Below are positions 6,446 to 54,809 of a stretch of 64,000 bases of DNA, piece after piece. The notes below the pieces were generated by a model that saw only the letters and a program-made list of their open reading frames with translations, was not told where the DNA came from and searched no databases. The DNA is from Bdellovibrio bacteriovorus HD100 (GTDB taxonomy: Bacteria > Bdellovibrionota > Bdellovibrionia > Bdellovibrionales > Bdellovibrionaceae), in contig NC_005363.1 of assembly GCF_000196175.1 (NCBI RefSeq), positions 1,488,001 through 1,552,000 on the forward strand. The letters are read 5' to 3'. The position numbers and the translations under genes are program-made. How positions within the stretch are numbered: the first letter of the stretch is position 1; each line of letters starts with the position of its first letter.

Positions 6446-8662
6446 ATGTTTAATTTCCTGAAAGAGGATGGCTTAACCAACAAGCCGGTCAAAACAGTCG
6501 ACGATCTGCTGGCGCGCATTCGAGTCTATTATCCGAATGCAGATCTCAAAATTATTGAGAAGGCCTATTCATTCTCTGAGAAAATGCACGAAGGCCAAAT
6601 CCGCCGCAGCGGTGAACCTTACATTTCTCATCCTCTTTCGGTTGCCGCAATCTTGGCGGACTTCCATTTGGATCTGGACACCATTGCCACCGGTCTTCTG
6701 CATGACACCGTTGAAGACACCGCGGCCACGCTGGAAGACATTCGCCGCGAGTTCGGTGATGTGATCGCGCACCTGGTGGACGGGGTGACCAAGATCGGTC
6801 AGATGAAGTTCAAGAACAGCCACGAAAAGCAGGGTGAAAACATCCGCAAAATGATCGTGGCCATGGGTAAAGACGTGCGCGTCGTTCTGGTGAAGCTGGC
6901 TGATCGCCTTCACAACATGCGAACTTTGAATTTCATGCCGTTTGAAAAACAAGAGCGCATCGCTCTTGAAACATTGGAAATCTATTGTCCGCTGGCAGGG
7001 CGCATGGGTATCAGTGCGCTGAAGATTGAGCTGGAAGACCTGTGCTTCCGTTACTATCGCCCGGACATGTACTATGAACTTGTCCAGCAGATTAAAAAGA
7101 CCGAAGCCGAGCAGAATAGATATATCGAGGAAGTGAAGCATCTGATCGGAAAAGAACTGACCAAAGCCGGCTTCCGTTATGAAGTCTATGGGCGTTCCAA
7201 ACACTTGTGGTCCATCTACCGAAAAATGCAATCCCGTAACATCGACTACGATCAGGTATACGATGTTCTGGCATTCCGTGTGCTGGTTGAATCCGTGGCG
7301 GAATGTTATGCCGCTCTGGGGCTGGTCCACTCGCTGTGGAAGCCGATCCCGGGTCGTTTTAAAGACTTCATCGCGATGCCCAAGGCCAATAACTATCAGT
7401 CCCTGCACACGACCGTCATGGGCCCGGGCGGGGAGCGCATCGAGATTCAAATCCGTACCAGTGAAATGCATCTGGTTGCGGAAAAAGGTATCGCCGCTCA
7501 CTGGAAGTACAAAGAGCGCGGCAAGATGATGGACGACGGTGATTTGCAGCAGGCCAACTGGCTGCGTGATCTGGTGTCGTGGCATCAGAACGTGCGCAAT
7601 CCTGACGAATTCCTGGACACCGTCAAAACGGATTTGTTCGAAACTGAAATTTACGTTTTCACTCCGACCGGAGATGTTCGTGAATTCCCTGAAGGGGCCA
7701 CCCCGGTGGACTTTGCCTTCGCGGTTCACACGGAGCTTGGCAACCGCATTGTCGGGGCCCGCGTGAACGGCAAAATGGTGCCGCTGAAATATCAGCTGCA
7801 AAACGGGGACACAGTCGAAGTTGTCACTTCCAAAACCCAGGTGCCTTCCAAGGACTGGTTGAAATTTGTCGTTACCAATAAAGCCAAATCCAAAATCCGC
7901 GCCTTCGTCAAAGAAGAGCAGCGCCGTCGTGCGATCATGCTGGGTAAAGAACTGGTGGAAAAAGAATTCCGCAAGTTCGGCATGGCTGCCGTGAAGTATC
8001 TGAAAGGCCCGGCCTTTGAAGCCTATCTGAAGGACCACGGCCTGGCGGATCTGGATGAGTTGTACGTGACCGTGGGTTACGGAAAACTTGAAACGCGCAT
8101 TCTGGTGGAAAGACTTTCCCCGGAAAATATCGCCAAAGAAGCGGCCAAAACCGAAGACACGACCTTTATGGAAAGAGTCATGCGTGCCGCGACTCAAAAA
8201 ACACGCAAGACCAATTCCCTTATCAGTGTGGACGGCATGGATGACGTGCTGGTGCACTATGCAAAATGCTGTCATCCGATCCCGGGGGATCCGATCGTGG
8301 GCTTTATCAGCCGTGGCCGTGGTATCTCCATTCACCGCAGCGACTGCCGCAAGGCTTTTGAATTCGATCAGCTTCGCAAAGTCGATGTGACCTGGAATGT
8401 GAAACAAGCCGGAGAAGGCCAGGAGCGCATTGTGCGCCTGAAGATCATCTCCCAGGACGTGCCGGGATTGCTAAAACTGATGTCAGAAGCCTTTGCCCAG
8501 CAGGGGATCAATATTCAGTCAGCCCAGATCCGCACGACCAAGGATAAAAAAGCCGTGTGTAACTTCGAGGTCAGCGTTCAGAATGCGAGCCAGTTGAACC
8601 AGGCGGTGTTTGAAATCCAGAAGATCAAGGGGATCATTGGGGTCACCCGTGTTATTCACTAA
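6446..8662 (+). CDS. spoT: Bifunctional (p)ppGpp synthetase/hydrolase (RSH)
   Basis: 738 residues. Domains in order: HD hydrolase with HDTVED (residues about 78-83) intact; synthetase with YGRSKHLWSIYRK, YDVLAFRVLV and KANNYQSLHTT; TGS domain (IYVFTPTGDVREFPEGATP); a helical and Cys-containing region (KCCHPIPGD); C-terminal ACT domain (VPGLLKLMSEAFAQQGINI). The synthetase loop reads RFKD, the RXKD form found in bifunctional enzymes rather than the EXDD of mono-functional RelA. Both hydrolysis and synthesis of (p)ppGpp are therefore expected. The gene sits after the rpoZ terminator and probably has its own promoter just upstream. It could equally be labelled rel. Confidence 0.95.
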   Translation: MFNFLKEDGLTNKPVKTVDDLLARIRVYYPNADLKIIEKAYSFSEKMHEGQIRRSGEPYISHPLSVAAILADFHLDLDTIATGLLHDTVEDTAATLEDIRREFGDVIAHLVDGVTKIGQMKFKNSHEKQGENIRKMIVAMGKDVRVVLVKLADRLHNMRTLNFMPFEKQERIALETLEIYCPLAGRMGISALKIELEDLCFRYYRPDMYYELVQQIKKTEAEQNRYIEEVKHLIGKELTKAGFRYEVYGRSKHLWSIYRKMQSRNIDYDQVYDVLAFRVLVESVAECYAALGLVHSLWKPIPGRFKDFIAMPKANNYQSLHTTVMGPGGERIEIQIRTSEMHLVAEKGIAAHWKYKERGKMMDDGDLQQANWLRDLVSWHQNVRNPDEFLDTVKTDLFETEIYVFTPTGDVREFPEGATPVDFAFAVHTELGNRIVGARVNGKMVPLKYQLQNGDTVEVVTSKTQVPSKDWLKFVVTNKAKSKIRAFVKEEQRRRAIMLGKELVEKEFRKFGMAAVKYLKGPAFEAYLKDHGLADLDELYVTVGYGKLETRILVERLSPENIAKEAAKTEDTTFMERVMRAATQKTRKTNSLISVDGMDDVLVHYAKCCHPIPGDPIVGFISRGRGISIHRSDCRKAFEFDQLRKVDVTWNVKQAGEGQERIVRLKIISQDVPGLLKLMSEAFAQQGINIQSAQIRTTKDKKAVCNFEVSVQNASQLNQAVFEIQKIKGIIGVTRVIH

Positions 8663-11243
8663 CATCAGGAAGAATCTGCATTTCCTGATGGCTCTGTCCG
8701 TGCTGGGCATCGCCTCCATCGTGATTTTCGGATGGATTCTGCGGGACCCGGCTCTGATTCAAATTCGACCTGACTTTGCCCCGATGGTGATCAACACGGC
8801 ATTGGGGCTGGCCGCTCTGGCCATGGCTCTTCTTTTTTCGGAAGGGCGCTTTCTACGAATTTCCTTTTTCTCTTCGCTGTTTGCCTTTTTATTGGGGACG
8901 ATCAACCTGCTTCAGTATCTGACCGGTATTGATCTGGGCATTGATCAGGCCTTGGTAGAGCCATTTTACAGTGTGGGGGTGGCGTCGCCGGGGCGCATGT
9001 CCATAAGCACATCGGTTTGTATGTTGCTGTTAGGCGTGATGGGTGTGGTGTCGGGTCGTTCTTATGCCCGCCGGATGGTGCGAATCACGATCAGTTCTTT
9101 GGTGCTTGGGTTTAGTATACTGGGTTTTCTGGGGTACTTCCTGAACTTCAGTTCAGAGTACGGGTGGGGGGCAATCTCCCGCATGGCGATTCATACCTCG
9201 CTGTCCTTCGTTCTGCTGTCATTGGCGCACATTTTACAGTTGCGCCGCTCGGTGCGTGATGAAGAATCCGGTCGATCTGCCGTTGTGCCTTTGTATGTGG
9301 TTATGATCGGAGTTCTGACGGCGGTGGGTATCTGGCAGCTGTTGTTGCTGAAGGATATCGAAAGAAACCGCAGCATCACTTTGATTCGTGCTGAAAGTTT
9401 CCGCAGCAAGCTGGATGGAACATTTATTCCCCTTGAAAAAGCCCTGCAGCACATGTCCCGTCGCATGGCCGTGGGGGCCTATCGTGATGAATCTGTGTGG
9501 CGTATGGATGCTCAGTTTTACTACGAGGAATTCAAAGGCATCCGTCGAATTGCGTGGGCGGATCAGAATCTGCTGTTGCGCTGGCTGTATCCAATGGACG
9601 ACTTCAGCCGAAATATCCGCAACACCACCATGGGGCGTTCGGCTGAAATCAGACGCAGTTTGGATATGGCTCGCGAGTCCCATCAATCCCGCATTTCTCG
9701 CGTGATTGACATGAAATCCGGCGGGCGTGGTTTTGCGCTGCTGGTGCCGGTTTATAAGAACACAGAGTTTGCGGGAATTCTCAGTGCCGGGATCGAGATT
9801 CAGACTTTCCTGGATCGTTTTGCGCGCATTGAAAGTTATCATGTGGCCATTTATGAGGACGGGCAGGAGGTCTACCGCAGTTCAGACTGGGATCCTGTGT
9901 TGTCGCGGGACTGGCTGACGCGCATCCATTATACCAATATGGGTGTGGATTGGGCGATCGTCTTTGCACCTTCTACCAGAGCCATTCGCAGCAATACATC
10001 GGCGCTGCCTTCGGTGGTGCTGGTTTTTGCCGTGGGTATTTCCGTTTTGCTGGGGCTGTCGCTCAGCTTTTACAACCGCTCCGATGAAATGCGCAAACGG
10101 GCGCGGGCTGTGGCGGACTGGAAGTCGGCGGCGATGGATGCGACTCCGTTGATGATGATTTCCTTTGATGAACACGGTATTGTTCGGGAGATGAATCGCT
10201 CAGCGGAAGAAAAGACCGGCTGGAAGACCGAAGAGATCGCTGGAAAAGAGCACCCGTTCATCTTCCATGACCCACAGGACGTGGAGCTGATGCGGCTCAG
10301 ACTTGAAAGCGCACTGAAGCGTCCGGTTGAGCTGGGCGTTGATTTCTTCGAAGCCATGTTTGAAGCCGGCTTTAACACCGCTTCAGAGTGGACGTACGTG
10401 AATCGCAATGGTTCCCGCTTCCTTGGGCAGTTGTTCGTCGGAAAAGTCTTTGGTGAAAACGGGGACACGACGGGCTATCTGGCGGTTGTTGAGGACGTCA
10501 CCCAAAAGCGTCAGCGGGAAAAACAGATCAAGGAGCAGGAAGACAAGATCATCGCCAGCGCACGCCTGGCCTCGTTGGGTGAAATGGCAGCCGGCATCGC
10601 CCACGAGATCAACAATCCTTTGACCATCATCAATGGTCACGTCGGTGTTTTACGCCGCCTGCTGGGGGCCCGGGGGCTTGCCACGGACATTGAAGTGCAA
10701 AAGCGCGTTGAAGTCGTCGAAAACACCACCCAGCGCATCGCCAAGATCGTCAAAGGTTTGCGCTATTATTCCCGGGATTCTGATCCAGGTGATATGGAAT
10801 GGGTGACAGTGGATGCCATCATTGATGACACACTGGCGTTTTGTTCAGACAAGTTCCGGCATGAAGGGGTGGACCTGATTGCACGTCTGGAGCCGAACTT
10901 GAAGGTGTATGTGCGGCCGTATCAGATTTCCCAGGTGCTGTTGAATCTATTGAATAATGCGGCGGATGCCGTTCAGTCGGTCAACACCCGTAAGGTGGTG
11001 GTTGAAGCCAAAGGCGTGAAGGACGGTGTCGAGATTTCAATTTCCGATTCCGGTCCGGGAGTGCCAGCGTTTCTGCGCGATAAAATCATGGAGCCCTTCT
11101 TCACGACCAAAGAGGTCGGCATGGGGGTCGGTCTGGGATTGAGCATTTCAGAGGGGATCGTGCGATCTCATGAAGGCAGATTTTATCTGGATACGGAAGC
11201 CAGCCAAACAAGATTTGTGGTCTGGCTTCCTGCTAAACACTAA
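8649..11243 (+). CDS. Membrane sensor histidine kinase with PAS domain
   Basis: 864 residues from GTG 8649, chosen for the TTGGGG ribosome site six bases upstream; it overlaps the spoT end by 14 bases. The N-terminal 250 residues hold about seven hydrophobic segments. An extracytoplasmic sensor region of roughly 200 residues and another membrane helix ([19 protein letters not shown]) follow. A PAS domain comes next, then a short coiled coil, HisKA with phospho-acceptor His in [10 protein letters not shown], and HATPase with NNAADAV, DSGPGVP and VGLGLSI. It lacks a receiver domain and no response regulator gene is adjacent, so its partner is unknown. The overlap with spoT suggests translational coupling, but the signal sensed cannot be inferred. 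Confidence 0.9.
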
Positions 11244-13373
11244 CTACCAGAAATAATTCAGGCGCAGACCCAGCTCTCGAGGTGAGTTGACCTGGTTGTA
11301 GCTGACGGACTGACCGCCAATGGAACTTGTGCGGTCATAGATCACATAACGGGTGTCAAGCACGTTGCGCACGTACAAATCCACATTCATGCTCCATGCA
11401 GCCAAAGAATACTGCCCCAGCAAATCCAGATAGAACTGTTCCGGTGAATCCATGGTGTTTTCCGCATTGCCATAGGACTTGCTCAAGTATCTGAAGATAC
11501 CTGCGGCATTCCAGTCCTGGCTGATCTGATAGCCATAAGACAGGCGACCGGTCCAGTTGGGTGCAAACGGGAATTCATTGTCGGTGTAGTCCTTGGTGCC
11601 ATTCACAAAATCTTTGAAGCGGGTTTTTACATAACCAGCCCCCAGATTGAACTCATGGCGGGACGCCGGTTTCCAGTTGATCTCGGCTTCCGCTCCGTAC
11701 AGCTCCGAGCTGGCAGCATTGACCACTTGGGTGTCAAACGGGTCGTTTGAAAGTTGCACCATCACCTGCTGGTCTTTCCAGTCCGTATAGAATGCCGCCG
11801 AGCTGAAGTTCCAGTTGGAAGCGGCATATTTGTAAGACAGCTCATAGTTGCCGGTTTTTTCCGGATCGTAGGTGTCCACACGAACGCGCTTGCGGTTGAT
11901 GGACAAACCACCCGTGCGATAGCCTTCGGTGTAAGAGATCCCGTAGCTGTGCTGATCTTGAGTCAGCATGTAAGCCACTTTTGGAAGCAGGATGGAGTTG
12001 TTGTCCTCGTCTTCGTAGCTGCCAGTCACGCTGTCCAGATAGGCATCCACTGCGGCGTTGGTGCCGGCCCCCAGATTCTGCTTGCGGGTGGCGGTGACGT
12101 CAGCTCCGTATTTGTTTTTCACGAACTCGTAGCGCAGCCCCAGATTGATGGACTGATTTTCAGTGAATTTCCACAGGTAAGAATCAAACAGGGCAAATAC
12201 CGTGCGGTATTTGTCAGTCACCTGACTTGAAGCTACGGGCGTGAAAACAGAGACTGAAAGCGGGTACAGGATGTCGAAGCGGGCGTCGTCCTTCAGATAG
12301 TAGTCATGCGCATGGAAGCCCAGGACGTTCTTTAGTTTTTCGTTCTGGAACTTCAAAAGGTTTTCCACGCTGACAAAGCGGTCGTTGTGTTCTTCCGTAC
12401 GAACACCCGCGGTTGGGTTGGCCGTGCCATCCGCATCGCTGGTTTCGTCGTTTTTCGCCTGGGAATAGGCGCCGATAACCTCATTGGTCCATTGGTCATT
12501 CAATTTGACGAAATAGCGCAGGCTTGTTTGCTGGTTGCCGGTTTTGCTTTCAAAGTCCACGTCCTCGTTAACTTCATAGTCAAACGGGTTGGCACTTTGA
12601 ACGTAGTTTCCACCAGTTTCATTTTGCATGATCTTGGTGTTCCAGCGAACATAATCGGTTTCATTGATTTTGTAGGTCAGATCCAGACCCAGATGGTCTT
12701 TGGATTTTCCGCCCCATTTGTTGTTGTCAGTCTTGATATTTTTGATGAAACCATCATCCTGTTCGTGATTCACAGAAACACGGCTCAGCAGTTTTCCTTC
12801 CAGCCACACGTTGTTGGTCATCACACCCGCTTCAATGCGGTTGAAGCTGCCATAGCCAAGCTTGGCTGCTCCTTCGGTCTGATCCCCAGGTTTGTTATGG
12901 AAAAGCAAAATGCTGCCGGCCAAAGAGTTCACACCTTGTGTGGTGGACTGAGGGCCGCGGTACACTTCCACCTGCTGGGAATCCCACAGCTCAAAGCTGC
13001 CCGCTTTGATCGCAAGGTCGGTCTGGAAAACATCATCCACCAAGATAGAAGACAGATTGTCTTTCTGGAAGCCCGTCACGCCGGTGTTGTTCACACCACG
13101 GATACTGAAGCTGTCGTCGTTTTTGTTGATGGAAACGTTGGGAACCGCATTCAGGGCCTGGATGGAATCAGACTGAATTGGGGAGTCCAGCTCACGGCTG
13201 GGAACCACAGAAATACTTTCGGTGCTTTCCTGATAGGATTTGTTTTCCTTGGACCCTTGAACCTGCACGGCCTCCAGAGTGGAGGCTTCTTGAGCGGAAG
13301 CCTCTTCTGTGGCTGGAGTTTGAGCGTTCAGAATCAGCGGAAAGACGGTCAGAAGTGTGATGATGCGTTTCAT
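11244..13373 (-). CDS. iutA: TonB-dependent siderophore receptor, aerobactin receptor position
   Basis: 709 residues. A signal peptide (MKRIITLLTVFPLILNAQ) is followed by a TonB-box-like STLEAVQV and a plug domain with SIRGVNNTGVTG and VEVYRGPQSTTQGVNSLAGS. The C-terminal beta barrel ends in RLNYFW, the outer-membrane terminal aromatic pattern. Such proteins import ferric siderophores using TonB energy. It is the last gene of the siderophore operon, nine bases after the hydroxylase, exactly where iutA lies in the E. coli aerobactin operon. The ligand is inferred from that context; the sequence looks like a generic TonB receptor, so the iutA name is positional. Confidence 0.85.
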   Translation of the reverse strand: MKRIITLLTVFPLILNAQTPATEEASAQEASTLEAVQVQGSKENKSYQESTESISVVPSRELDSPIQSDSIQALNAVPNVSINKNDDSFSIRGVNNTGVTGFQKDNLSSILVDDVFQTDLAIKAGSFELWDSQQVEVYRGPQSTTQGVNSLAGSILLFHNKPGDQTEGAAKLGYGSFNRIEAGVMTNNVWLEGKLLSRVSVNHEQDDGFIKNIKTDNNKWGGKSKDHLGLDLTYKINETDYVRWNTKIMQNETGGNYVQSANPFDYEVNEDVDFESKTGNQQTSLRYFVKLNDQWTNEVIGAYSQAKNDETSDADGTANPTAGVRTEEHNDRFVSVENLLKFQNEKLKNVLGFHAHDYYLKDDARFDILYPLSVSVFTPVASSQVTDKYRTVFALFDSYLWKFTENQSINLGLRYEFVKNKYGADVTATRKQNLGAGTNAAVDAYLDSVTGSYEDEDNNSILLPKVAYMLTQDQHSYGISYTEGYRTGGLSINRKRVRVDTYDPEKTGNYELSYKYAASNWNFSSAAFYTDWKDQQVMVQLSNDPFDTQVVNAASSELYGAEAEINWKPASRHEFNLGAGYVKTRFKDFVNGTKDYTDNEFPFAPNWTGRLSYGYQISQDWNAAGIFRYLSKSYGNAENTMDSPEQFYLDLLGQYSLAAWSMNVDLYVRNVLDTRYVIYDRTSSIGGQSVSYNQVNSPRELGLRLNYFW

Positions 13374-13382
13374 GGGTTCTCA

Positions 13383-14660
13383 CTAGATGTAGGTAATAAA
13401 GTTAGGCACAGCCTTGTCGATCGGGAAGATGCTCTTTTTTGTCAGGTTGTTGATGATGCGGGCCGAACGCCATGCCATCAGACTGGTCTGCGGTTCCGAG
13501 ATCCCGTGACCATGACGGCTGAAGTTCAACGCAAAGATTTTGTTGTTCTCTGAACCGTTCCAGGAAACCTGGAAGTCCTGATTCATCTGGAAACGGCCAT
13601 TTTCATCGAAATTGATCATCGGGCGCAAAGGCTCAATCAAAGACGGGATGTTCACGCGGAAGCCCGTACTTAGCACCACGGTGTCAGCCGTCGTGGTTTC
13701 GCTCTGGTTGCTAAAGCCATTGTGGATGTGCATTTTGTAGCGATCACCGATTTTCACCATTTCAGTCACACGACGGTACGGCAGAATTTCAATCTGACGT
13801 TTGTCGCCCCAAACGTGTTTTAGCTGGTAAAGATCGCGGTACAGGGTTTCCAGATATTCCGGAGTGTTTCCGTCGCTGGCCAGTTTTTGATATTTTACGA
13901 TAGGATCTTTTTGATCCTGATCCAGCTGCAGGAACTCTTTCACGTAAGACGGTGTGAAGTATTCGTTCACGAACGGAGAGTTGTCCAGCGGCTCCAGATT
14001 CTGGCGGCTGGCAATCAGCTTCAGACTTTTCGGATGACCCCATTTGCCCTGCAGGCAGTTGCGGAAGATTTCAAGACCGGTCTGACCACCGCCGACCACG
14101 ACAACGTCTTTGTTGGTGGCATCAAGCAGCTTCAGATAGCTGGACTTGGCGTGGAAGACTTCCGGACCTTCCAGGGCCTGTGCAAACTCTGGCAGGTGCG
14201 GGACAAGGCCCGTACCAATACAGATATTCTGCGCGGTGAAGATTTCACCATTGATGGTCAGGATGAATTTGCTGCCGTCGTAGGTGACAGATTCAATGTC
14301 GCTGTCAAAGCTCAGGTATTCAGGCAGATTCTGGCTGACCCACTGGCAGTACATTTCAAATTCACGACGGGTGATGGTCTGCCGTCCTGTGTTCAGGAAC
14401 GCATAGAACAAACCCTTTTGAACCAGGAAGTTCATGAAGCTGAATGGGTTCGTCGGATCTGCCGCCGTGACCAGATCCTTCATGTAAGAAGTCTGCATTT
14501 CAGAATCCGCGAACATGATTTCAGAATGCCAGTCAAAGCGGTGTTTGCGATCAAAGAAGCGGAATTTCACATCCGGAGTCTTGCTTAGCAAAGCTGCCAG
14601 ACTCAGGTTGAACAAACCAATGCCGATACCGATCAGATCATAGTGTTTGTTGTCGCTCAT
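13383..14660 (-). CDS. iucD: Lysine N6-hydroxylase (siderophore biosynthesis)
   Basis: 425 residues, matching the family length. The N-terminal FAD fingerprint is GIGIGLFNLSLAALL, with the substrate region RFDWHSEIMFADSEMQTSYM. The NADPH-binding GGGQTGLEIF lies near residue 188, and the C-terminal LSTGFRVNIP is the ATG(Y/F)-type hydroxylase motif. The enzyme hydroxylates the side-chain amine of lysine, or ornithine in relatives, as the first step of hydroxamate formation. The start overlaps the iucC stop by four bases. Together with iucA, iucB and iucC it makes lysine, hence aerobactin, the most likely route; no decarboxylase for a diamine siderophore is present. Confidence 0.92.
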   Translation of the reverse strand: MSDNKHYDLIGIGIGLFNLSLAALLSKTPDVKFRFFDRKHRFDWHSEIMFADSEMQTSYMKDLVTAADPTNPFSFMNFLVQKGLFYAFLNTGRQTITRREFEMYCQWVSQNLPEYLSFDSDIESVTYDGSKFILTINGEIFTAQNICIGTGLVPHLPEFAQALEGPEVFHAKSSYLKLLDATNKDVVVVGGGQTGLEIFRNCLQGKWGHPKSLKLIASRQNLEPLDNSPFVNEYFTPSYVKEFLQLDQDQKDPIVKYQKLASDGNTPEYLETLYRDLYQLKHVWGDKRQIEILPYRRVTEMVKIGDRYKMHIHNGFSNQSETTTADTVVLSTGFRVNIPSLIEPLRPMINFDENGRFQMNQDFQVSWNGSENNKIFALNFSRHGHGISEPQTSLMAWRSARIINNLTKKSIFPIDKAVPNFITYI

Positions 14661-16405
14661 GCGCGCCCCTTTTTAAGGGCCAGGGCCACGGGGTTTTTCA
14701 GATCCTCACCCAGGATTGGCAGTGGGCGCTCGGCAGAATCTGCATAGCCGATTTTGAAACGGACTTTGTTCACCAATACGCGGTGGAAGGTGTCCTGAAG
14801 AAGGTCGATTTTGCCAAAATAGTTCAAAGCTTTGATCTCCGGATTTTCCGCCAGATAAGACTCAAGAGTCCTACCCAAAACGGCATAGAATTCAATCTCG
14901 GGATATTTATCGCATTCTTGCAAAGTTTCGGAGATAAAACGTAACACCGTTACTAAATGACCAGTCAAAAGATCATGAATCAGATAATGTCTCGGTAATC
15001 GGGTTAAATCGAAGCCGGAAAGGGAGCTGGAGTCATCACTCAGGCGCAAATCCCCCTGAAAATCTTTCAAGAAGACCCCGGAGGGTGTGGAGTTTTTCAG
15101 ACGGATGACCACGTTCTGCCCATGGGCCACCAGGCCGATCCCGTAACGGGCCTGCAGGTGGTAAAGCGGGATAAAGACTTTTTCAAAGTACCGCGCAAGC
15201 CAGGAACCAAGATCCAGACCGGAGGCTTTCGCGTAAGCACCCAACAGCGAATGCCCCTTGGCATCGCGATGGAAAAGGCTTCCGGCGATAATGGCCGTTT
15301 CGCCTTCAGCAAGGTGGCAGTCTGAACTTTGGCGCCACAAAACACCCAATAACTCATTGTAGCGGTAAGGGGCCTGGGCAATCTGGTTGTACAAGCCGTG
15401 GCTGACGGACAGACCGGCTTTTTCTTCAAGCACTGTCACGCCTGACAGGACTTCATCCTTCTGGCAAAGTTCGCTCAGAGCGGTGCTGAGCGCCGGGCCT
15501 TGCTTCATGTACTTGCCCGGGATCCCGCGAATGGCCGAAGTGTTCAGGATCGTGATTGGCAGCTTGATGTCGAGTTTTCCCGGGCGGGTGATGTTGCTGA
15601 ACGTGCGCAGGCTGATCTGCGGCAGGTACTGGTCACCAAAGGCTCCCAGGAAGTGAATGTGGCCACAGGCCAAATCCGTTCCGTATTGAATTTTGATATA
15701 GCGTTCCCACTGCCACGGATGAACCGGGACAAAGTGGTGATCGGACTTTGAGATGTTTTTAGCAGCCAGCTCTTTTTCAAAAGCTGTTTTGTCCGAAAGA
15801 CACTCGTTCAATACATCGTCCCAGGAAAGACGGGCATCCAATCCCTCCAGGGTTTGAGTCTTGCGAACAGCCAGCCAGTAAAACTGAACGGGCTTGGCGT
15901 TTTCAGGTCCGTAAAGATCTTGATCTGCTGCACTCCAGCCGATACGGCCTTTATTCAGCAAGATTTTCGGATGCCCCTTCAAAAAGGTCTGAACCTTTTC
16001 CCCGCTGAAGGCAGTCATTTCTTCAGCAGTTACCTGACGATTCAGTTCCAGCACGCGCAAGTCCGCATACAGGGTGTTGTGCATCTCTTCCAAAAAATTG
16101 GCTAGGATGATGTCATCCATGCCGGTTTCTTTCTGGCAGTCGATAAAGAACTGTCCGGCACTTTCCGCGGTAACGCCGTTGCGGGTGATTGACGCCGGAT
16201 CCACCTTCAGATCCGTCCAAAGGCCACGCCAGGCATTGAATTTATAAACGGTCTGATTTGCCAGCGTCAGTTCATAAGGGCCGACGACGGATTCATCCCG
16301 CGTGGTTGTGGCCACGGGGTTGATCACCTGTTCATAGGTGAGCTCCTGCAGACTTTTTGCGATCATCTGCAGATTGATGTTTTTCCAGTCGGCCAAAGAA
16401 CTCAT
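14657..16405 (-). CDS. iucC: IucA/IucC family siderophore synthetase, second condensation
   Basis: 582 residues, the family's usual size. These NRPS-independent synthetases adenylate citrate carboxyls and join them to an amine. Seen here: HPWQWERYIK in the first half, TSAIRGIPGKYMKQGP for ATP and citrate binding, and AHGQNVVIRLKN in the C-terminal half. A C-terminal IucC-type FhuF-like region follows. In the aerobactin operon, iucC is third and attaches the second N6-acetyl-N6-hydroxylysine to citryl-hydroxylysine. It overlaps iucB and iucD by four bases each, so the block is translationally coupled. The assignment as IucC rather than IucA rests on gene order. Confidence 0.9.
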   Translation of the reverse strand: MSSLADWKNINLQMIAKSLQELTYEQVINPVATTTRDESVVGPYELTLANQTVYKFNAWRGLWTDLKVDPASITRNGVTAESAGQFFIDCQKETGMDDIILANFLEEMHNTLYADLRVLELNRQVTAEEMTAFSGEKVQTFLKGHPKILLNKGRIGWSAADQDLYGPENAKPVQFYWLAVRKTQTLEGLDARLSWDDVLNECLSDKTAFEKELAAKNISKSDHHFVPVHPWQWERYIKIQYGTDLACGHIHFLGAFGDQYLPQISLRTFSNITRPGKLDIKLPITILNTSAIRGIPGKYMKQGPALSTALSELCQKDEVLSGVTVLEEKAGLSVSHGLYNQIAQAPYRYNELLGVLWRQSSDCHLAEGETAIIAGSLFHRDAKGHSLLGAYAKASGLDLGSWLARYFEKVFIPLYHLQARYGIGLVAHGQNVVIRLKNSTPSGVFLKDFQGDLRLSDDSSSLSGFDLTRLPRHYLIHDLLTGHLVTVLRFISETLQECDKYPEIEFYAVLGRTLESYLAENPEIKALNYFGKIDLLQDTFHRVLVNKVRFKIGYADSAERPLPILGEDLKNPVALALKKGRA

Positions 16406-17382
16406 AGGTAGCGTCCCCCGAAGAAGGCTTCACGACGGCACTCCAGCAGCGCCGCACGTTTGTGAGGGAAGTCGAATTCTTTCAGTTTCTTCCACGCGGT
16501 GAAAGTTTCCAGGTACTTCAGGACGTTGACATTGTCCGAACGAGGCTCTGCCATGATTTTACGCGTGCGGGGTTCTTCCAGGAACAGGTAATGGCACACG
16601 GATTTCAAGATGGCGTCGGTGTTGGCAAAGCCCAGCACGCTGACATCCCCAATCAGGAAGTGGAAGCCACGGTCAAAGGCCTCTGAATCATAGTATGGAC
16701 CCAGGCGGTCTTCTTTGGTCCAGTACATTTCAAAGTAACCCACCGGCACTCCGTCAAATTCCAGAATGGTCGGGAATTGGTGGCCGTCCTTCAGACCTTT
16801 TGCAAGGTAATCACGCAGTTCTTCTTTGGGTTTGTCCAGTTCCCAGAATTTCAGTACACGCGGCTGGTTGTGCCACTCGTGGAAGATATCCAGGTCTTTT
16901 TCGATATGCGCCACACGGAAAGTCAAAACTTTGCCGTCGCTCAAAGTGCGGCGGTAAAGGATCTGACCTTCTTGAATTGCGGGGCGCACCGGGTGAGCGA
17001 CGTCTTTGGTCGTTGTCCATTTTTCCGGAGTCCATGTGTTCAAACCGTTGTGAACCCAAAGTGGACGAAGCTGGAAGAAATCATCACGATTCACAACCAA
17101 CGGAGACGTATTGGCACCCACCAGGGCCTGAATTTCAGGGTGCGCGTCAGTGACAGTCACAGACTGCAAAGATTTGTTGGAGTTAAACAGAGCTTCCAGC
17201 ATCGCCAGAATTTCAACAGCAGAGACGGCGCCGTTGGTGTTCAGGGTGGTGCTTTCGCCATCGACAGAAACTTTGAAAGGGACTTGAACTTTGTCCGTTT
17301 TCAGAAGGCCCGTTGTGCCTTCGATGTGCACGTTAAAAGCCTGACCAGTGGCGCAAACGTAAGTGGAGAATTGGATGTTCAT
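16402..17382 (-). CDS. iucB: N6-hydroxylysine O-acetyltransferase (IucB/AlcB type)
   Basis: 326 residues. The N-terminal 130 residues are a poorly conserved beta-rich part. The C-terminal GNAT domain shows the AlcB/IucB signature: FHEWHNQPRVLKFWE, then GVPVGYFEMYWTKEDRLGPYYD, RGFHFLIGD, and MAEPRSDNVNVLKYLE. The enzyme acetylates hydroxylysine from acetyl-CoA to form the hydroxamate used in siderophore assembly. It overlaps iucA by four bases and iucC by four bases. Its size and place match E. coli IucB. An alternative substrate such as succinyl-CoA or another acyl-CoA cannot be excluded. Confidence 0.9.
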   Translation of the reverse strand: MNIQFSTYVCATGQAFNVHIEGTTGLLKTDKVQVPFKVSVDGESTTLNTNGAVSAVEILAMLEALFNSNKSLQSVTVTDAHPEIQALVGANTSPLVVNRDDFFQLRPLWVHNGLNTWTPEKWTTTKDVAHPVRPAIQEGQILYRRTLSDGKVLTFRVAHIEKDLDIFHEWHNQPRVLKFWELDKPKEELRDYLAKGLKDGHQFPTILEFDGVPVGYFEMYWTKEDRLGPYYDSEAFDRGFHFLIGDVSVLGFANTDAILKSVCHYLFLEEPRTRKIMAEPRSDNVNVLKYLETFTAWKKLKEFDFPHKRAALLECRREAFFGGRYL

Positions 17383-19130
17383 GACAGGGCTCCAGAGAAA
17401 GAGATTGGGTTGTCGATCAAATTGTAAATAGCCAATGGGTTGGCCACAGTGTTTTCATTCAGACTTTGCAGGCTGCAGATGAAGTTGCCTTTTTGCCAGA
17501 TGCGCGCATCGCGGGTCACGTAATCCAAAAAGCTTGTGTCCGGCAGATTCGGTTTATACAGGCCTTTGATGAACTCGTTCATATCCTGAATCAGCAGGGC
17601 TTCGCTGGCTCCTTCTGGATGCGACAGGGCTGCCAGAATATTCCAGGTTGAATTCACCAGCAGATAGTAGGCAAAAAGAATATTGCCTTTGTTATCCAGA
17701 ATGTTGCCGTTATCACGGGTCAGACTTGCCACGTCATTGTGATAAAGACTGTAGCCTTGTTCGCTGTAACCCGTTCCCTGGCAATCACGGAAATAGGCCT
17801 TCACCGGCAGATTTTCAGAAATACGCAAAATCATGTTCTGCTGGTGCGCGCCCAGCAAAATGCCGTATTCACTTTGAGCCGTGATAAACGGCTGCAACGC
17901 CACCTGCATATAGTGCTTAAACCATTCGCGGCTGGCGTCTTTCAGATTTTTACCGGATGATTTCGCAAGCTTCTGCACCTGTTTCCAGATCAAGGTGTCG
18001 CCACCCAGGGGATTGTCCTGGGCCAGTGTGGAAACCACGATGTTTTCTTCACCTGGGACTTCGGTTTGGAACGGATTTTCCCGGCAGACCACGATGCTTT
18101 CGTTGATGACTTTCCCATCGATGGTTTTCAACGCGGCAAAAGCAGGTTCAAAGACCACTTCAAACTGCGGGTTGTCCTGCAGGAACTTTTTCCCGACGGT
18201 GGTCGCCATCACGTCATACACTTGCAGACCGCGCACAACTTCCACGTCAGTCAGGTGACGGATGGAATTGGTCAGTCGCACGGTCAAAGAAAACTTCAGC
18301 ATATACGGGCTGTGGGCCCCGTAAATTGAGCGCAAGGAAGACGTTGGATGCCAGATTTTGGTTGATACCACGCCGCCGTCCACAATCAGACCTTTTTCGA
18401 GATAGGACTGGATCGAAGCGTTTTTCAAAAGATGCTGGCGCTGCCATGGGTGAACGGGGAATGCGACAAAGCCTTCCGGAATGCTGCCGGATCCTTCAGC
18501 CTGGAACAGGTGATCGGTCCAGTTCTTGGTGGCAAAGGCTGCCGCAGTTTGCACATGCAGGACTTCAGGTTTTACAAAGAACCAGTGCAAGGGGAAGCGT
18601 CCGCCCATTTCCGGAGAATAAATTTCAAAATCACGATCATCAAATCCCTCACGCATTTTGGGATACGGGTGAAAGTTGTGACCGACCATCAGGCCTTGTT
18701 CCGCCTCGATGAAGCTGACTTTGCCGGAATAGATGTGTTCAATGTCCTTTTCGCGAGCTTTCAGGGAAAGCTCCATATTGTGCAGGCTGTTTTCAAGGCG
18801 GCCCATGAACAGATCTTTTTTGCCAAGATCCTGTTCCCAGTGTTTGCACAGGAACGTCAGAAGCTCATTTGCGGCCTGGTTGAAATCAACGGATTGCAAA
18901 GCCGAGCCGTGGCGCAAATAGAAAGTGCCGGTGTATTCGTGGCGTCCCAGCAGGGACTTTTTGCTCAGGGGAATCAGCACTTCCTGGCCATTTTTAAGGT
19001 CCACAGAAATGACGTCAGTCTTTTCCGGAGTGGTTCCTGCTTCAAAAGTAAAATTTTGATATTCCCTGAACAGGGAATTCATAAAGCAAGAGACCGTGTG
19101 TTTCAGGGCCAGTTCTTTGAAATTATGCAT
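17379..19130 (-). CDS. iucA: IucA/IucC family siderophore synthetase, first condensation
   Basis: 583 residues from ATG 19130 (MHNFKELALK), behind GAGGCGG six bases away; an upstream in-frame start at 19163 would lie inside the MFS gene. Landmarks are FPVHPWQRQHLL, KIWHPTSSLRSIYG, KFSLTVRLTNSIRHLTD and GAHQQNMILRI, the set shared by NRPS-independent synthetases. By order it is IucA, which joins citrate to the first N6-acetyl-N6-hydroxylysine. The start overlaps the transporter stop by eight bases (ATGCATAA). It differs clearly from the downstream iucC, so the pair is not a recent duplication. Confidence 0.9.
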   Translation of the reverse strand: MHNFKELALKHTVSCFMNSLFREYQNFTFEAGTTPEKTDVISVDLKNGQEVLIPLSKKSLLGRHEYTGTFYLRHGSALQSVDFNQAANELLTFLCKHWEQDLGKKDLFMGRLENSLHNMELSLKAREKDIEHIYSGKVSFIEAEQGLMVGHNFHPYPKMREGFDDRDFEIYSPEMGGRFPLHWFFVKPEVLHVQTAAAFATKNWTDHLFQAEGSGSIPEGFVAFPVHPWQRQHLLKNASIQSYLEKGLIVDGGVVSTKIWHPTSSLRSIYGAHSPYMLKFSLTVRLTNSIRHLTDVEVVRGLQVYDVMATTVGKKFLQDNPQFEVVFEPAFAALKTIDGKVINESIVVCRENPFQTEVPGEENIVVSTLAQDNPLGGDTLIWKQVQKLAKSSGKNLKDASREWFKHYMQVALQPFITAQSEYGILLGAHQQNMILRISENLPVKAYFRDCQGTGYSEQGYSLYHNDVASLTRDNGNILDNKGNILFAYYLLVNSTWNILAALSHPEGASEALLIQDMNEFIKGLYKPNLPDTSFLDYVTRDARIWQKGNFICSLQSLNENTVANPLAIYNLIDNPISFSGALS

Positions 19131-20310
19131 AGACCGCCTCGCGACGTCTGTAAAGAAGGGCAATGTTCAATGCCATGACAACAACGAGCGCCGTCATCAC
19201 ACTTTCAATGCCGAAAAGATCCAATTTAAAAGTCAAAGCGGCCAGGCCCCCGCCAAAGGTGTAACCCAGTGTATTGGCGGCAGCCGCAAGCCCGGCACGA
19301 CGGCCAAACTGCAGTTCAGGGCCGCGTGTCGCCATCAAGGCCATATAGCAAGGTGGAATCAGGGAAAGCCCCACTGACAAAAGAACAATCGCCAGCCAAA
19401 GCTGCGCCCAGCCGCCCAGATCACCCAGGATCAGGCTTGCGCCCAGCAGGGTGGCCACGCCTACGATCATGGCACCTTGCCACGGATTTTTGAAAAGAAC
19501 TTTACCCAGAGCTTGAGTGAGCACAGCCAAAATTGCGCTGACCAAAAGCAGTTTTGCCATCAAGACGCTGGAATCGACCGAAGTCAGGTCGAAGGATTTT
19601 TTCAGGATGGAAGCCAATGAGAAATTCAAAATGCCGACAAAGCTTGTGAACAAGATCGCCAGTGAAAAGATGTCAGAAATGTGGCGCAGGGCGGACTTCC
19701 ATTCCAAGATCGAAATGCGCTCGGTCTGTGTCGCCTTCGGAGCTTCCGACTGTGTGATGCCAAACAGGTTCAAGCCCAATACCACGAGCGCCCACACAAC
19801 CGTGCTTTGCAAAATCAAAAGCATGTTGGAACCGCCCCCCAAAAGCAGATACAGCGGCCCCAATGCACGGCCCACATTCAGACTCATGGAGTTGGACAGC
19901 ATGGACTTCAATGGCGTCTGTTCCGGGTGCTGATCAATTTGCAGGGCTTGGGATACTGGAACGATTGCAGCGGCCGTCAGGCCATAAAGCAGGCGGCTTC
20001 CCCACACGGCTAGTTCATTCATCCAATAAGTTCCCGGCGCCATCAATACCGCAGTCAGAATCCCGGTGGAAAGAAAAAGTCCCAGCATACCGACAGAAAG
20101 AACTTTCATGCGGCCCCAGCTGTCACTGCGGGATGCCCAGAAAGGGCTGGACCACAGGAACAGAAAACTTCCCACGCTGAAACTCAGCACCACGGATGAC
20201 AAACTCAAAGTCGCTTTTTCCGCAATGAACGGAATCAGCGTGAAGGTCATCATCTGGATGGCACTGAAAGTGGTGGTGTTTAAATGTCCCAGGGCGCTCA
20301 GCTTCTTCAT
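19123..20310 (-). CDS. MFS transporter, probable siderophore exporter
   Basis: 395 residues from ATG 20310, which overlaps the PepSY stop (ATGA) and has AGGGAG just upstream. About twelve hydrophobic segments are visible, and the loop between helices 2 and 3 has WASRSDSWGRMKVLSVG, the major-facilitator signature G/D-R-x-G-R-(K/R). Lying directly before iucA in the operon, it most likely exports the finished siderophore, as MFS proteins do for several hydroxamates. Import of a ferri-siderophore or of a breakdown product is also possible. It ends in LLYRRREAVYA, with a basic cytoplasmic tail. Confidence 0.8.
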   Translation of the reverse strand: MKKLSALGHLNTTTFSAIQMMTFTLIPFIAEKATLSLSSVVLSFSVGSFLFLWSSPFWASRSDSWGRMKVLSVGMLGLFLSTGILTAVLMAPGTYWMNELAVWGSRLLYGLTAAAIVPVSQALQIDQHPEQTPLKSMLSNSMSLNVGRALGPLYLLLGGGSNMLLILQSTVVWALVVLGLNLFGITQSEAPKATQTERISILEWKSALRHISDIFSLAILFTSFVGILNFSLASILKKSFDLTSVDSSVLMAKLLLVSAILAVLTQALGKVLFKNPWQGAMIVGVATLLGASLILGDLGGWAQLWLAIVLLSVGLSLIPPCYMALMATRGPELQFGRRAGLAAAANTLGYTFGGGLAALTFKLDLFGIESVMTALVVVMALNIALLYRRREAVYA

Positions 20311-21611
20311 TGAGCTCCCTTTTTCAGCCACGCGACCACGAAGTAAACGACGATGTACACCGGCACGATCAGAGCCGCGACAAACAGGGTGTTCAGGGCC
20401 CCTTGAACCAGGAAGCTGCCGATCACGGCGGTTGTTGAAAAGACGGACAGGATCACCGGCACGGTGTAGATCTTTTTAAACAAAGCACCTTTCCAAGGCT
20501 GTATGGAAGTGGCTTTGGCAGCAGGGGCAGGAGCTTTTTTACGGCGACGGTTCCACCAGATGTAAATTCCTGAAACTGGCATCACCAGTGACGCCACAGA
20601 CAGAATCACCCACAATATTTTCAGGAACAATCCGCCATAGTTTCCGAAATGCAGAGGTTCTGACAGCATGGCGACTTTCAGATACCATGGAAGCTCACGC
20701 ACCTCCGTCAGTTCTCCCGTAACGCCATCAATGATAACCAGGTCCACAAGACGTTCGGTCATCGGTGTGTTTCCATGCATCAGGACCATGAAGTGGCCCG
20801 GAGGCGAGAACTGCGTGTCCGGAAACACCATGAAATCAAAAGTGGATTCTGGCAAAGCCTTCTGCGCAGACGCGATCACCTTGTCCAAAGGCGCCAGCGG
20901 GGCCTGGGGAGCTGTGGGATACTGCACATTCAGTTTTTGCAGTTCACTGTATTGAAAGACTTTGATCAGAGTGGAAGAGAACCCAAGGAACGAACCAGTC
21001 ACGCCGATCATCAAACTCCAGGCAAAGGCGGTCATGCCGATAAAGCGGTGCAGGTCTCCCATGGTGGCGCGGGTGGAGCCTTTGCGAACTTCGCCAAAGT
21101 TCGTCTTGCGCGAAAAGTTGCCGTAAATGAAGAAGCCTGAAATCAGCGTAAAGGCGTAAAGCACGCCGATCAGGCCGACATAGATTTTGCCGTTGGAGCC
21201 CAGCAGGAACTCACGATGCAGGCGCAGGATGAAATCCATAACCCCGTCGGTTTTCTTTGGTGCCGAGACCTCTTCGCCCGTGTGAACGTTGAAATACACG
21301 CGGTGCGATTCACGGAAAAGTTTTGAACCCTTCGTGCCCATGCGAAGTTGCGCGACATTGTGATCAACTTCTTCGATGTTGAAGGACTGGGGGCGGTCCT
21401 CCGGGTATTTCTGCAGAATTTTTTCTATATGGGTGTCCATGGCCGGAATGACTTCGGCATGGTGCTCTTCCTGATGGCTGTCATGACCTTCGATCTCGTC
21501 CTTCAGGATCAAAATGGTTCCGGTCAGGATCAAAACAAACAGGTGCACGGCCACGAAAATGCCCACATATATGTGGAATTTATAGAGAATTTTAAAAAGC
21601 CGTCCGGTCAC
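20307..21611 (-). CDS. PepSY-associated TM protein, possible ferric-siderophore reductase
   Basis: 434 residues from GTG 21611, with CAGGAA about seven bases upstream. Four transmembrane helices with a large loop: the first helix carries KFHIYVGIFVAVHLFVLILTG, others include LHREFLLG and LHRFIGMTAFAWSLMIGVTG with paired His residues. A last pair follows GNYGGLFLKILWVILSV. This is the PepSY_TM family pattern, seen in proteins near siderophore receptors that are thought to reduce ferric complexes in the periplasm with haem held by the His residues. It is the first gene of the siderophore operon. Reductase activity is inference; direct evidence in this sequence is the fold pattern and context only. 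Confidence 0.75.
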   Translation of the reverse strand: MTGRLFKILYKFHIYVGIFVAVHLFVLILTGTILILKDEIEGHDSHQEEHHAEVIPAMDTHIEKILQKYPEDRPQSFNIEEVDHNVAQLRMGTKGSKLFRESHRVYFNVHTGEEVSAPKKTDGVMDFILRLHREFLLGSNGKIYVGLIGVLYAFTLISGFFIYGNFSRKTNFGEVRKGSTRATMGDLHRFIGMTAFAWSLMIGVTGSFLGFSSTLIKVFQYSELQKLNVQYPTAPQAPLAPLDKVIASAQKALPESTFDFMVFPDTQFSPPGHFMVLMHGNTPMTERLVDLVIIDGVTGELTEVRELPWYLKVAMLSEPLHFGNYGGLFLKILWVILSVASLVMPVSGIYIWWNRRRKKAPAPAAKATSIQPWKGALFKKIYTVPVILSVFSTTAVIGSFLVQGALNTLFVAALIVPVYIVVYFVVAWLKKGAQ

Positions 21612-21745
21612 GATATGTTCCTGCGAATAAGAGTCATTTAGCGTTGGTTGGTTTTAATATGGGGCGCTAGAGGGGGCAAGTTCTCAGAGTGGATGTAAGC
21701 GTATTGAGAAAATAAGAGAGGGTCTTTGTGAGGGGGGCTTAGAAA
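21612..21745. other. Intergenic leader/promoter region of the siderophore operon
   Basis: Contains the weak Fur-like box near the operon start, and an AT-rich stretch (GTATTGAGAAAATAAGAG) that could hold promoter elements. I see no open frame or other repeat. Confidence 0.4.
21622..21636 (-). promoter_or_regulatory. Fur-box-like sequence before the siderophore operon
   Basis: Read on the minus strand this is TGACTCTTATTCGCA. It matches the 15-base Fur consensus TGATAATNATTATCA at 10 of 14 informative positions and ends ten bases before the GTG start, overlapping the ribosome site. Given the iron-uptake genes behind it, an iron-responsive operator is plausible but unproven; a better site may lie further upstream. 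Confidence 0.35.
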
Positions 21746-21810: not shown

Positions 21811-22311
21811 TTACTTCACACGGCCAGTAACTTGGATGTGGATACCCACTTTGTCGGAATCACACAGGTCCGCGGCGTCAGAAACTGGAACGTAAACAGC
21901 CACACGGCCGTGAAGGTATTTGTAGTCGTTTTTAGCCAGCAATTGATCCAGGTAGGCTTTGCCTTCAGAGCAGTCAGAAGTGCCGGAAGTCGCGTAAGCT
22001 TTGGATTGAGTCAAAGATACCGTCCAAAGAGCGTTGTCTGCCAACATCAAAGTGCTGTAGTTGCAAGTGGAGTCACCTTCAGTGTAAGTCGCCTTCAGAA
22101 GGATGTTGTCCAAAGAGTAGTCTGCAGAAGCCGTTGTGAAGATGATGTTGCGGGAAGAAATATCAACCGGAGTTGCTGTCTGAGTGTTGCCATCGTCACA
22201 AACGTAAGCTGTGAATTTTGCCAACCATCTTTCGCCGTCAAGAACCAGGTCTTGGTTTGCTTGGGCAGAGAATGGAAGAACCAATAGAAGTGCCAGTGCA
22301 AATTTTTTCAT
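21811..22311 (-). CDS. Small secreted protein of unknown function
   Basis: 166 residues with a clear signal peptide (MKKFALALLLVLPFSAQA|N). The mature protein is acidic and beta-rich with five Cys (CDDGN, STCNYS, TSDCSEGK, ADLCDSD pattern), probably forming disulfides. No domain recognised. It is monocistronic, flanked by a terminator behind and by an inverted-repeat promoter region in front that resembles iron-regulated operators. It lies next to the siderophore operon in the same direction. An iron-stress or envelope role is conceivable from context only. Confidence 0.7.
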   Translation of the reverse strand: MKKFALALLLVLPFSAQANQDLVLDGERWLAKFTAYVCDDGNTQTATPVDISSRNIIFTTASADYSLDNILLKATYTEGDSTCNYSTLMLADNALWTVSLTQSKAYATSGTSDCSEGKAYLDQLLAKNDYKYLHGRVAVYVPVSDAADLCDSDKVGIHIQVTGRVK

Positions 22312-49587: not shown

Positions 49588-49761
49588 ATTTGGTGTGCAC
49601 ACTTTTTGAGCGGACGGGTCCGAGTTTCTCTCTTTTTCAATATGCTTGCAAAAAGAATATGGACAACTGGACTTTTCCACCATTAAATAGGAGCAAACTA
49701 AAATTAGGACAGCATTCGTTTGTCTTTGGCCCACATCGTAATGAGTTAGCGAAGGATGATT
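49588..49761. other. Intergenic promoter region before actA
   Basis: 174 bases with a short CGGAC-ggg-TCCG hairpin near 49620 and an AT-rich stretch (ACCATTAAATAGGAG) around 49680 that could be a promoter. No clear terminator for ccsA, so read-through into act is possible. Confidence 0.4.
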
Positions 49762-50301
49762 ATGCATCGGGTATTCAAAAGAACAGCGGCGGGCGCAATG
49801 GCGTTTATTGGCGCGCTCATGGTTACAACACTTCTGACAGGCTGTAAATTCCAGCCGGGTTGGGGATATAATAAAGGATACGCTCCAGAACAGCCGATTC
49901 CTTTTGATCACTCTCTACATGTGGGTACGCACAAAATGCAGTGTCAGTACTGCCACAATCAAATCGAGAGAACAAAACACGCAAACATTCCTGCGCTTTC
50001 AACGTGCATGAACTGTCACTTGCAGGTTGCCACCGACAAGCCGGCAATCCAAAAGCTGCGTGAAGCTTATGATAACGGGGACTCCATTGAATGGACTCGC
50101 GTTCACATGCTTCCGGACTTCGTTCACTTCAACCACAACGCCCACATTGCCAAAGGCGTGAACTGTCAGACGTGCCACGGTCCAATCGAGACCATGAAAA
50201 CCGTTCAACAGTTCTCTGATCTCTCTATGGGTTGGTGCGTGAACTGTCACCGTCAGCCAGAGAACAAAGCTCCACTTAACTGCTCAACTTGCCACTACTA
50301 A
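49762..50301 (+). CDS. actA: Alternative complex III subunit A, pentahaem cytochrome c
   Basis: 179 residues from ATG 49762 (MHRVFKRTAAG); an ATG two codons earlier lies too close to AAGG. A hydrophobic N-terminal segment ends in a lipobox-like LLTGC. Five haem-binding CXXCH motifs are present: CQYCH, CMNCH, CQTCH, CVNCH and CSTCH. This count is characteristic of ActA, the periplasmic electron-transfer subunit of alternative complex III. It needs the cytochrome maturation genes just upstream. Twelve bases separate it from actB. Confidence 0.93.
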   Translation: MHRVFKRTAAGAMAFIGALMVTTLLTGCKFQPGWGYNKGYAPEQPIPFDHSLHVGTHKMQCQYCHNQIERTKHANIPALSTCMNCHLQVATDKPAIQKLREAYDNGDSIEWTRVHMLPDFVHFNHNAHIAKGVNCQTCHGPIETMKTVQQFSDLSMGWCVNCHRQPENKAPLNCSTCHY

Positions 50302-50313
50302 GGGTTTGGTAAA

Positions 50314-53300: not shown

Positions 53301-53447
53301 CTTCAAAACTGAAGAACGTGGTTACGCACTTCTTGAAGAGTGGCATGCGGCTCCGTCCGTTCGCTATCTTTCCAAGATCCGTAACAATGATAAAGAATCA
53401 ACTGGTGATCAAAAAGGTCACGGTACTGCAAAACAAGGTGAGCACTC

Positions 53448-53451
<4 letters not shown>
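50314..53451 (+). CDS. actB: Alternative complex III subunit B, molybdopterin-like plus Fe-S
   Basis: 1045 residues, the fused form of ActB1 and ActB2. A twin-Arg motif [10 protein letters not shown] and a lipobox-like ASAGC occur near residue 70. Residues about 85-700 resemble the molybdopterin oxidoreductase fold but, as in other ActB proteins, probably lack the cofactor. The C-terminal 250 residues hold Cys clusters for iron-sulfur centres: [36 protein letters not shown] and CTFCV with CQTAC. ActB forms the electron wire of the quinol-oxidising complex. Its stop overlaps actC (ATGA). Confidence 0.95.

Positions 53452-54808
<1,357 letters not shown>

Positions 54809-54809
<1 letters not shown>

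Follow-up and report, generated by a model that had tools for sequence, protein, structure and literature searches.

We describe here a putative siderophore operon of Bdellovibrio bacteriovorus HD100 that lies in a stretch of 64,000 nucleotides, hereafter the window, corresponding to bases 1488001-1552000 of the single-contig genome (3,782,950 bases). Seven genes occupy the minus strand from 21611 to 11244, in the order PepSY_TM, major facilitator superfamily (MFS) transporter, IucA, IucB, IucC, IucD and TonB-dependent receptor. The original prediction, made from the sequence of this segment, had proposed an aerobactin-type operon with PepSY and MFS genes in front. The seven minus-strand open reading frames (ORFs) agree with it in order, coordinates and domains, and both leading genes lie before iucA on the same strand. 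The features discussed below are the following.

20307-21611, minus strand: PepSY_TM protein of 434 amino acids (aa), likely a di-haem periplasmic ferric-siderophore reductase of the FoxB type (Pfam PF03929, 178 bits)
19123-20310, minus strand: MFS transporter of 395 aa, likely a siderophore exporter (PF07690, MFS_1)
17379-19130, minus strand: IucA-type nonribosomal peptide synthetase-independent siderophore (NIS) synthetase (IucA_IucC/FhuF domains; best solved match IucA)
16402-17382, minus strand: IucB-type N-hydroxylysine acetyltransferase (PF13523, Acetyltransf_8)
14657-16405, minus strand: IucC-type NIS synthetase (IucA_IucC/FhuF domains; best solved match IucC)
13383-14660, minus strand: IucD-type lysine (or related amine) N-hydroxylase (PF13434, Lys_Orn_oxgnase, 376 bits)
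11244-13373, minus strand: TonB-dependent receptor of 709 aa, not an IutA orthologue (PF00593 and PF07715, barrel and plug)
21690-21710, minus strand: direct-repeat-like upstream element, common to this operon, feoAB and a cytochrome operon (weight matrix)
21811-22311, minus strand: gene of 166 aa whose product has a signal-like N-terminus and falls in no Pfam family

The genes are as tightly packed as had been claimed: successive junctions from PepSY_TM to IucD overlap by 4, 8, 4, 4 and 4 bases when the preferred ATG starts are used, and 9 bases separate IucD from the receptor. The ORFs of the MFS and IucA genes extend further (19123-20331 and 17379-19163), the ATG starts at 20310 and 19130 being more likely. 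From the overlaps only, we infer that the seven genes may form one transcript. A hairpin with a T run, seen by eye and unlisted in our hairpin scan, lies between 21811 and 21611, upstream of PepSY. Because it separates the upstream gene of the same strand (21811-22311) from PepSY, the operon is probably transcribed from a promoter of its own, located past the hairpin. Consensus promoters were fewer in our scan than in shuffled sequence.

The original prediction had also called for the distribution of the system across Bdellovibrio strains. We found iucA in 12 of 24 Bdellovibrio genomes; the count is 13 of 66 for the family and 46 of 368 for the whole phylum. In all 13 iucA-positive genomes of the family (the window and 12 further loci) the seven genes stand in identical order, PepSY_TM being linked to iucA each time. 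As the same arrangement recurs in all 12 other iucA-positive family genomes, it is not a product of chance. Identity among the IucA proteins of the family ranges from 43 to 92%.

Sequence comparison supports the proposed aerobactin-type synthesis. Against the E. coli reference (L087, part of plasmid pEGY3), IucA, IucB, IucC and IucD form one-to-one best pairs as orthologues, with 33, 33, 38 and 38% identity (over 301 aa for IucB); against an aerobactin-type cluster of Vibrio, identities are 35, 35, 38 and 43%. Among solved structures, IucA is closest to Klebsiella IucA (259 bits; AcsD, next, 81) and IucC to IucC (396 bits; DesD, next, 243). Of the references tried, the aerobactin set gives the top score for IucA, IucB and IucC. 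The enzymes of acinetoferrin synthesis score lower than this set for all four Iuc proteins, and an NIS locus of Neorhizobium scores lower than the aerobactin enzymes for IucA and IucC. A phylogeny grouping the genes with non-aerobactin NIS pathways had been named as evidence against the claim; we ran this check only in the form of pairwise scores with a small set of reference loci, and it did not refute the claim. IucD is less informative: among solved structures it matches a putrescine hydroxylase best, and it is 41% identical to the hydroxylase of a Sinorhizobium siderophore-like cluster that holds an adenylation-domain protein. Given this likeness to several amine hydroxylases, IucD is not enough to fix the substrate. 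No decarboxylase or other diamine-forming gene is present in any of the 13 family operons. Our best guess from these comparisons is that the product is aerobactin or a near relative.

The operon's MFS protein is distantly related to the MFS protein encoded beside E. coli iucA (30.5% identity, E 2.7e-15). It has no match in NCBIfam and none to the RhtX/FptX importer family (TIGR02718) at E 0.001 or better, and on this ground we rejected import of the RhtX/FptX type by this protein. The single RhtX/FptX match in the genome is another MFS gene, with 101 bits for a cut-off of 356.

We had to abandon the view, part of the original prediction, that the last gene corresponds to iutA. The receptor scores 31 bits with E. 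coli IutA and 34 bits with an IutA-like protein of Vibrio; on TIGR01783 it reaches 129 bits, against a cut-off of 223.5 and 635 bits for E. coli IutA. It occupies the position of iutA, but by these scores the two are not orthologues. When 13 such receptors were combined in a profile, the best solved match was the pesticin receptor FyuA (81 bits). The two best relatives on plasmids, from Pseudoalteromonas and Vibrio, are about 27% identical, and each lies at most two genes from a PepSY-TM gene. Outside the family, we read 24 loci from 33 iucA-positive genomes, several of them cut by contig ends; 8 of the 24 hold a receptor at least 42% identical to that of the operon, and only one holds an IutA-like receptor.

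The PepSY_TM protein, which scores 178 bits on PF03929 for a cut-off of 28.8, is the sole match to this family in the genome. It aligns with the FoxB structure 7abw (E 2e-7, in two pieces), so that its histidines H13, H132, H188 and H321 stand opposite histidines of FoxB. Of six histidines tested, these four are the only ones invariant in all 21 proteins compared (13 from the family and 8 others). By their position and by the description in PMC13038864, the matched residues would be the haem ligands of FoxB. Two PepSY_TM proteins provide precedents as ferric-siderophore reductases, FhuB of B. cenocepacia (PMC10866019) and HiuB (PMC13001220), and FsrB works together with FeoAB in Bradyrhizobium (PMC10760861). 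The two nearest plasmid relatives that we examined adjoin TonB siderophore receptors. A contig scan with one protein sequence as query, which has less reach than an alignment query, returned one relative. A role in reduction had been suggested as a possibility by the original prediction, and it gains strength from the four FoxB-aligned histidines and from the linkage of PepSY_TM to iucA throughout the family.

On the side of inner-membrane import, a search for FecCD-family permeases gave no match in this genome; the same search detected the family in 13 of 14 known genomes that served as control. Three of the 24 Bdellovibrio genomes responded: G003, which lacks iucA, has a strong match; G022 a weak one, from two genes that Pfam assigns to ABC-3 metal permeases; and G012 one below the cut-off. 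In the 12 iucA-positive Bdellovibrio genomes we found no genuine FecCD permease. G003, alone in the genus in its strong match, also carries a different PepSY_TM gene and a SpoT match in two pieces. As no permease of the FecCD type was found, the FhuCDB-type import route of E. coli is probably not available here. The genome does encode FeoAB, with feoA adjoining feoB, and four TonB-receptor barrels.

We consider it probable that this is an aerobactin-type operon with a reductive recovery half, in which PepSY_TM would act in the periplasm and FeoAB would take up Fe2+. The substrate, the product, the direction of the MFS protein, the action of the reductase on the siderophore, the hand-over to FeoAB and the control by iron are parts of this scheme that we infer. 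IucD would hydroxylate lysine and IucB would then acetylate it, after which IucA and IucC would join two copies of the hydroxamate to citrate. The finished siderophore would be exported by the MFS protein, and its ferric complex would be carried into the periplasm by the operon's TonB-dependent receptor. There the di-haem PepSY_TM protein would give an electron to Fe(III), and the Fe(II) thus freed would be moved across the inner membrane by FeoAB. No transporter of the FhuCDB type would be needed, since the siderophore need not reach the cytoplasm.

Control sequences offer a further link between the operon and feoAB. No E. coli-type Fur box occurs within three mismatches in the window, and a scan of the 13 operon upstream regions gave best sites no better than those of shuffled sequences in 12 cases, G035 being the exception. 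By eye, however, we noticed an upstream element that has the look of a tandem repeat, its period being 11 bases, and that recurs within two mismatches in 11 of the 13 operons. A weight matrix of 21 bases was built from seven operon sites. In this genome it gives 15.5 bits to a site upstream of feoA, a score reached at only 2 of 127,960 positions of the window: the operon's own site, which is part of the matrix, and 49634. Sites at 71-75 bases before feoA score 15.5, 19.5, 15.2 and 27.0 bits in four more genomes, two of which lack iucA, so that the feoAB element is present in all five Bdellovibrio genomes examined. One example is L079:3884-3904, before a feoA gene that starts at 3976; in G023, which has no iucA, the element before feoAB is almost identical to that of the operon. 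Over 1,297,384 positions, 23 sites reach at least 13 bits, and eight of these are the operon's own site, the four feoA sites and three sites at a cytochrome operon. No comparable upstream site was found at the three other TonB-receptor loci: the best site of L030 (13.5 bits) lies inside or after the gene, and L032 and L033 stay below 9 bits.

The second site of the window (49634-49654, plus strand) stands roughly 100 bases upstream of a gene for a multihaem cytochrome c (49756-50301), which is followed by genes for two further proteins, one FeS/molybdopterin-like (50314-53451) and one NrfD (53448-54809). The genes from 49756 to 54809 look like the first part of an operon for alternative complex III. 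The element precedes this cytochrome operon in G009 and G023 as well.

A Fur box described for metal-reducing delta-proteobacteria is the palindrome WTGAAAATNATTTTCAW (PMC545781); the operon element has a half-site in common with it but differs in arrangement. We may hypothesize that the element is an iron-control box of the genus, distinct from the classic Fur box. Its presence before both the operon and feoAB supports a pathway of reduction followed by uptake through FeoAB; it is a strong lead, not proof, because we picked the pattern out by eye and compared related genomes.

The genomic position of the operon varies between lineages. This genome, G005 and G008 have it at the present spot; the remaining iucA-positive genomes that we read have it elsewhere. 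We examined 11 further loci, each from a different genome, and found no operon beside the histidine-kinase gene (8610-11243 in the window); in 8 of these 11 operon-free loci this gene and the gene at 22457 directly adjoin; among these eight is G009, which lacks iucA and is close to HD100 by SpoT. At 11243/11244, the edge of the inserted block, the receptor and histidine-kinase genes meet tail to tail with zero bases between them. We noticed no repeats or integrase at the block edges, though no search was aimed at either. In GC content the operon resembles its surroundings. The SpoT and IucABCD trees agree in their main groups, and the presence of iucA requires four changes on the SpoT tree; this species tree is rough, since SpoT is a single gene, and for PepSY, MFS and receptor only the quick form of the tree was completed. 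Our reading of these sequence data is that the operon is an old trait of the group that was often lost and that changed its place as a block on at least one occasion.

Genes of the operon are fused in some relatives. G095 encodes PepSY and MFS in one ORF of 734 aa before iucA (L184:11284-13488; the MFS part is weak in Pfam, with 20 bits, under the cut-off) and IucA and IucB in one ORF of 738 aa (L184:9078-11294). Elsewhere in the phylum, IucA ORFs of 732-799 aa hint at further fusions, and that of L173 clearly matches IucA plus IucB. As for the 166-aa protein encoded at 21811-22311, which has no match in Pfam or NCBIfam, its gene accompanies the operon in several genomes, yet seems to have its own terminator.

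Several observations weigh against reductive recovery. Identity between PepSY and FoxB is low and the protein is covered in two pieces; its structure predictions are poor, with a mean predicted local distance difference test score (pLDDT) of 52 both alone and with one relative. PepSY_TM proteins with other roles exist, such as CrpH, which is linked to copper (PMC13038864), and the Caulobacter PepSY protein HiuB is dispensable for aerobactin use (PMC13001220). Outside the family, 8 of the 24 iucA loci have a clear PepSY gene, one a contig-end fragment and three a distant PepSY-like gene nearby, but the other 12 show none in view. FecCD occurs in 26 of 34 searched iucA-positive genomes (33 outside the family plus G035, a FecCD-negative family member), and outside the family it is present in 6 of the 8 genomes whose cluster has a clear PepSY gene beside it and in 10 of 12 without. 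At these proportions PepSY and FecCD do not substitute for each other there; FecCD being common with or without PepSY, the argument from its absence holds within the family only. Lastly, our searches could have overlooked a permease that belongs to some other family. The system might then be an ordinary aerobactin system in which the intact ferric siderophore enters the cytoplasm through such a permease, PepSY being accessory. The Caulobacter result, the frequency of FecCD outside the family and the weak RhtX/FptX match elsewhere in the genome would agree with this, but it does not sit well with the lack of FecCD here and in the iucA-positive Bdellovibrio, with an operon MFS that has no RhtX/FptX match, or with a PepSY gene in every family operon, and we regard it as improbable.

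An uncertainty of another kind concerns the product, which could be a related citrate-hydroxamate that differs from aerobactin in its amine (cadaverine or diaminopropane, for instance) or in its acyl group. The putrescine hydroxylase and Sinorhizobium matches of IucD would fit such a compound, and IucB, at 33% identity, leaves the acyl group unfixed. Yet the aerobactin enzymes are a closer match for IucA and IucC than those of acinetoferrin or Neorhizobium, and an amine-making gene is missing from all 13 operons; a different product seems unlikely, if still worth keeping in mind. We also considered recent uptake of the operon from an enterobacterium or a Vibrio, perhaps as prey. Its patchy presence in the genus and phylum and its lineage-specific genome spot might suggest such an event. 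However, enzymes only 33-43% identical to those of E. coli and Vibrio, when IucA identity within the family is at least 43%, argue against it, as do the GC content, the different receptor and the broad agreement of the Iuc and SpoT trees, which makes a recent enterobacterial transfer unlikely. On identity, GC and trees we rejected this origin, which has very little probability left. Returning to reductive recovery, a broader proposition can be put forward, tentatively and with somewhat more doubt than confidence: that these bacteria make their own aerobactin-type siderophore and have abandoned its cytoplasmic import, PepSY and FeoAB replacing FhuCDB, with a seven-gene unit that moved as a block within the group and is tied to FeoAB by a non-Fur element.

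Siderophore genes in Bdellovibrio have been noted before. A siderophore cluster is listed for B. bacteriovorus LR3 (PMC12843806). One paper mentions siderophore genes in two Bdellovibrio from soil (PMC5941755), another ferric-siderophore receptors in HD100 (PMC4511183). A term search of the main text of an array study of early predation (PMC2797640) did not return the word 'siderophore'. In the open-licence literature on Bdellovibrio iron and siderophores and on aerobactin reduction, we found no paper on the present import scheme. A siderophore cluster in B. bacteriovorus is therefore already known; it is the import variant for which we found no paper. If our interpretation is correct, an aerobactin-type siderophore is recovered without a siderophore permease, iron being removed in the periplasm, and this removal is wired into the synthesis operon itself. 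The pepSY, receptor and feoB genes would offer a direct genetic handle on the iron supply of a periplasm-feeding predator outside its prey or in host-independent growth, and the common upstream element would give access to the control of iron in this group, for which our scans showed no E. coli-type Fur box.

Compared with known systems, the synthesis half is orthodox, and the import half departs from that of E. coli in receptor, permease and probable reductase. E. coli iucABCD-iutA has the same order of iucABCD, followed by a TonB-dependent receptor, with an MFS gene beside iucA in both species; in E. coli that gene is divergent, whereas here it belongs to the operon and lies on the same strand. 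The receptor here is not orthologous, PepSY_TM stands in front, and neither a FecCD permease nor a Fur box was found. The iuc cluster of Vibrio sp. THAF191d (L086) shares iucABCD, 35-43% identical, and carries fhuC, fhuD, fhuB-like and iutA-like genes (names read from the translations), as in a normal ABC route; here PepSY and another receptor take the place of the fhu and iutA-like genes. With FoxB, FsrB, FhuB of B. cenocepacia and HiuB, the operon's PepSY_TM protein has in common the family, the four-histidine pattern and the link to a TonB-dependent receptor. In the accounts available, however, those four proteins serve siderophores made by others, whereas the gene described here is a constant member of a synthesis operon.

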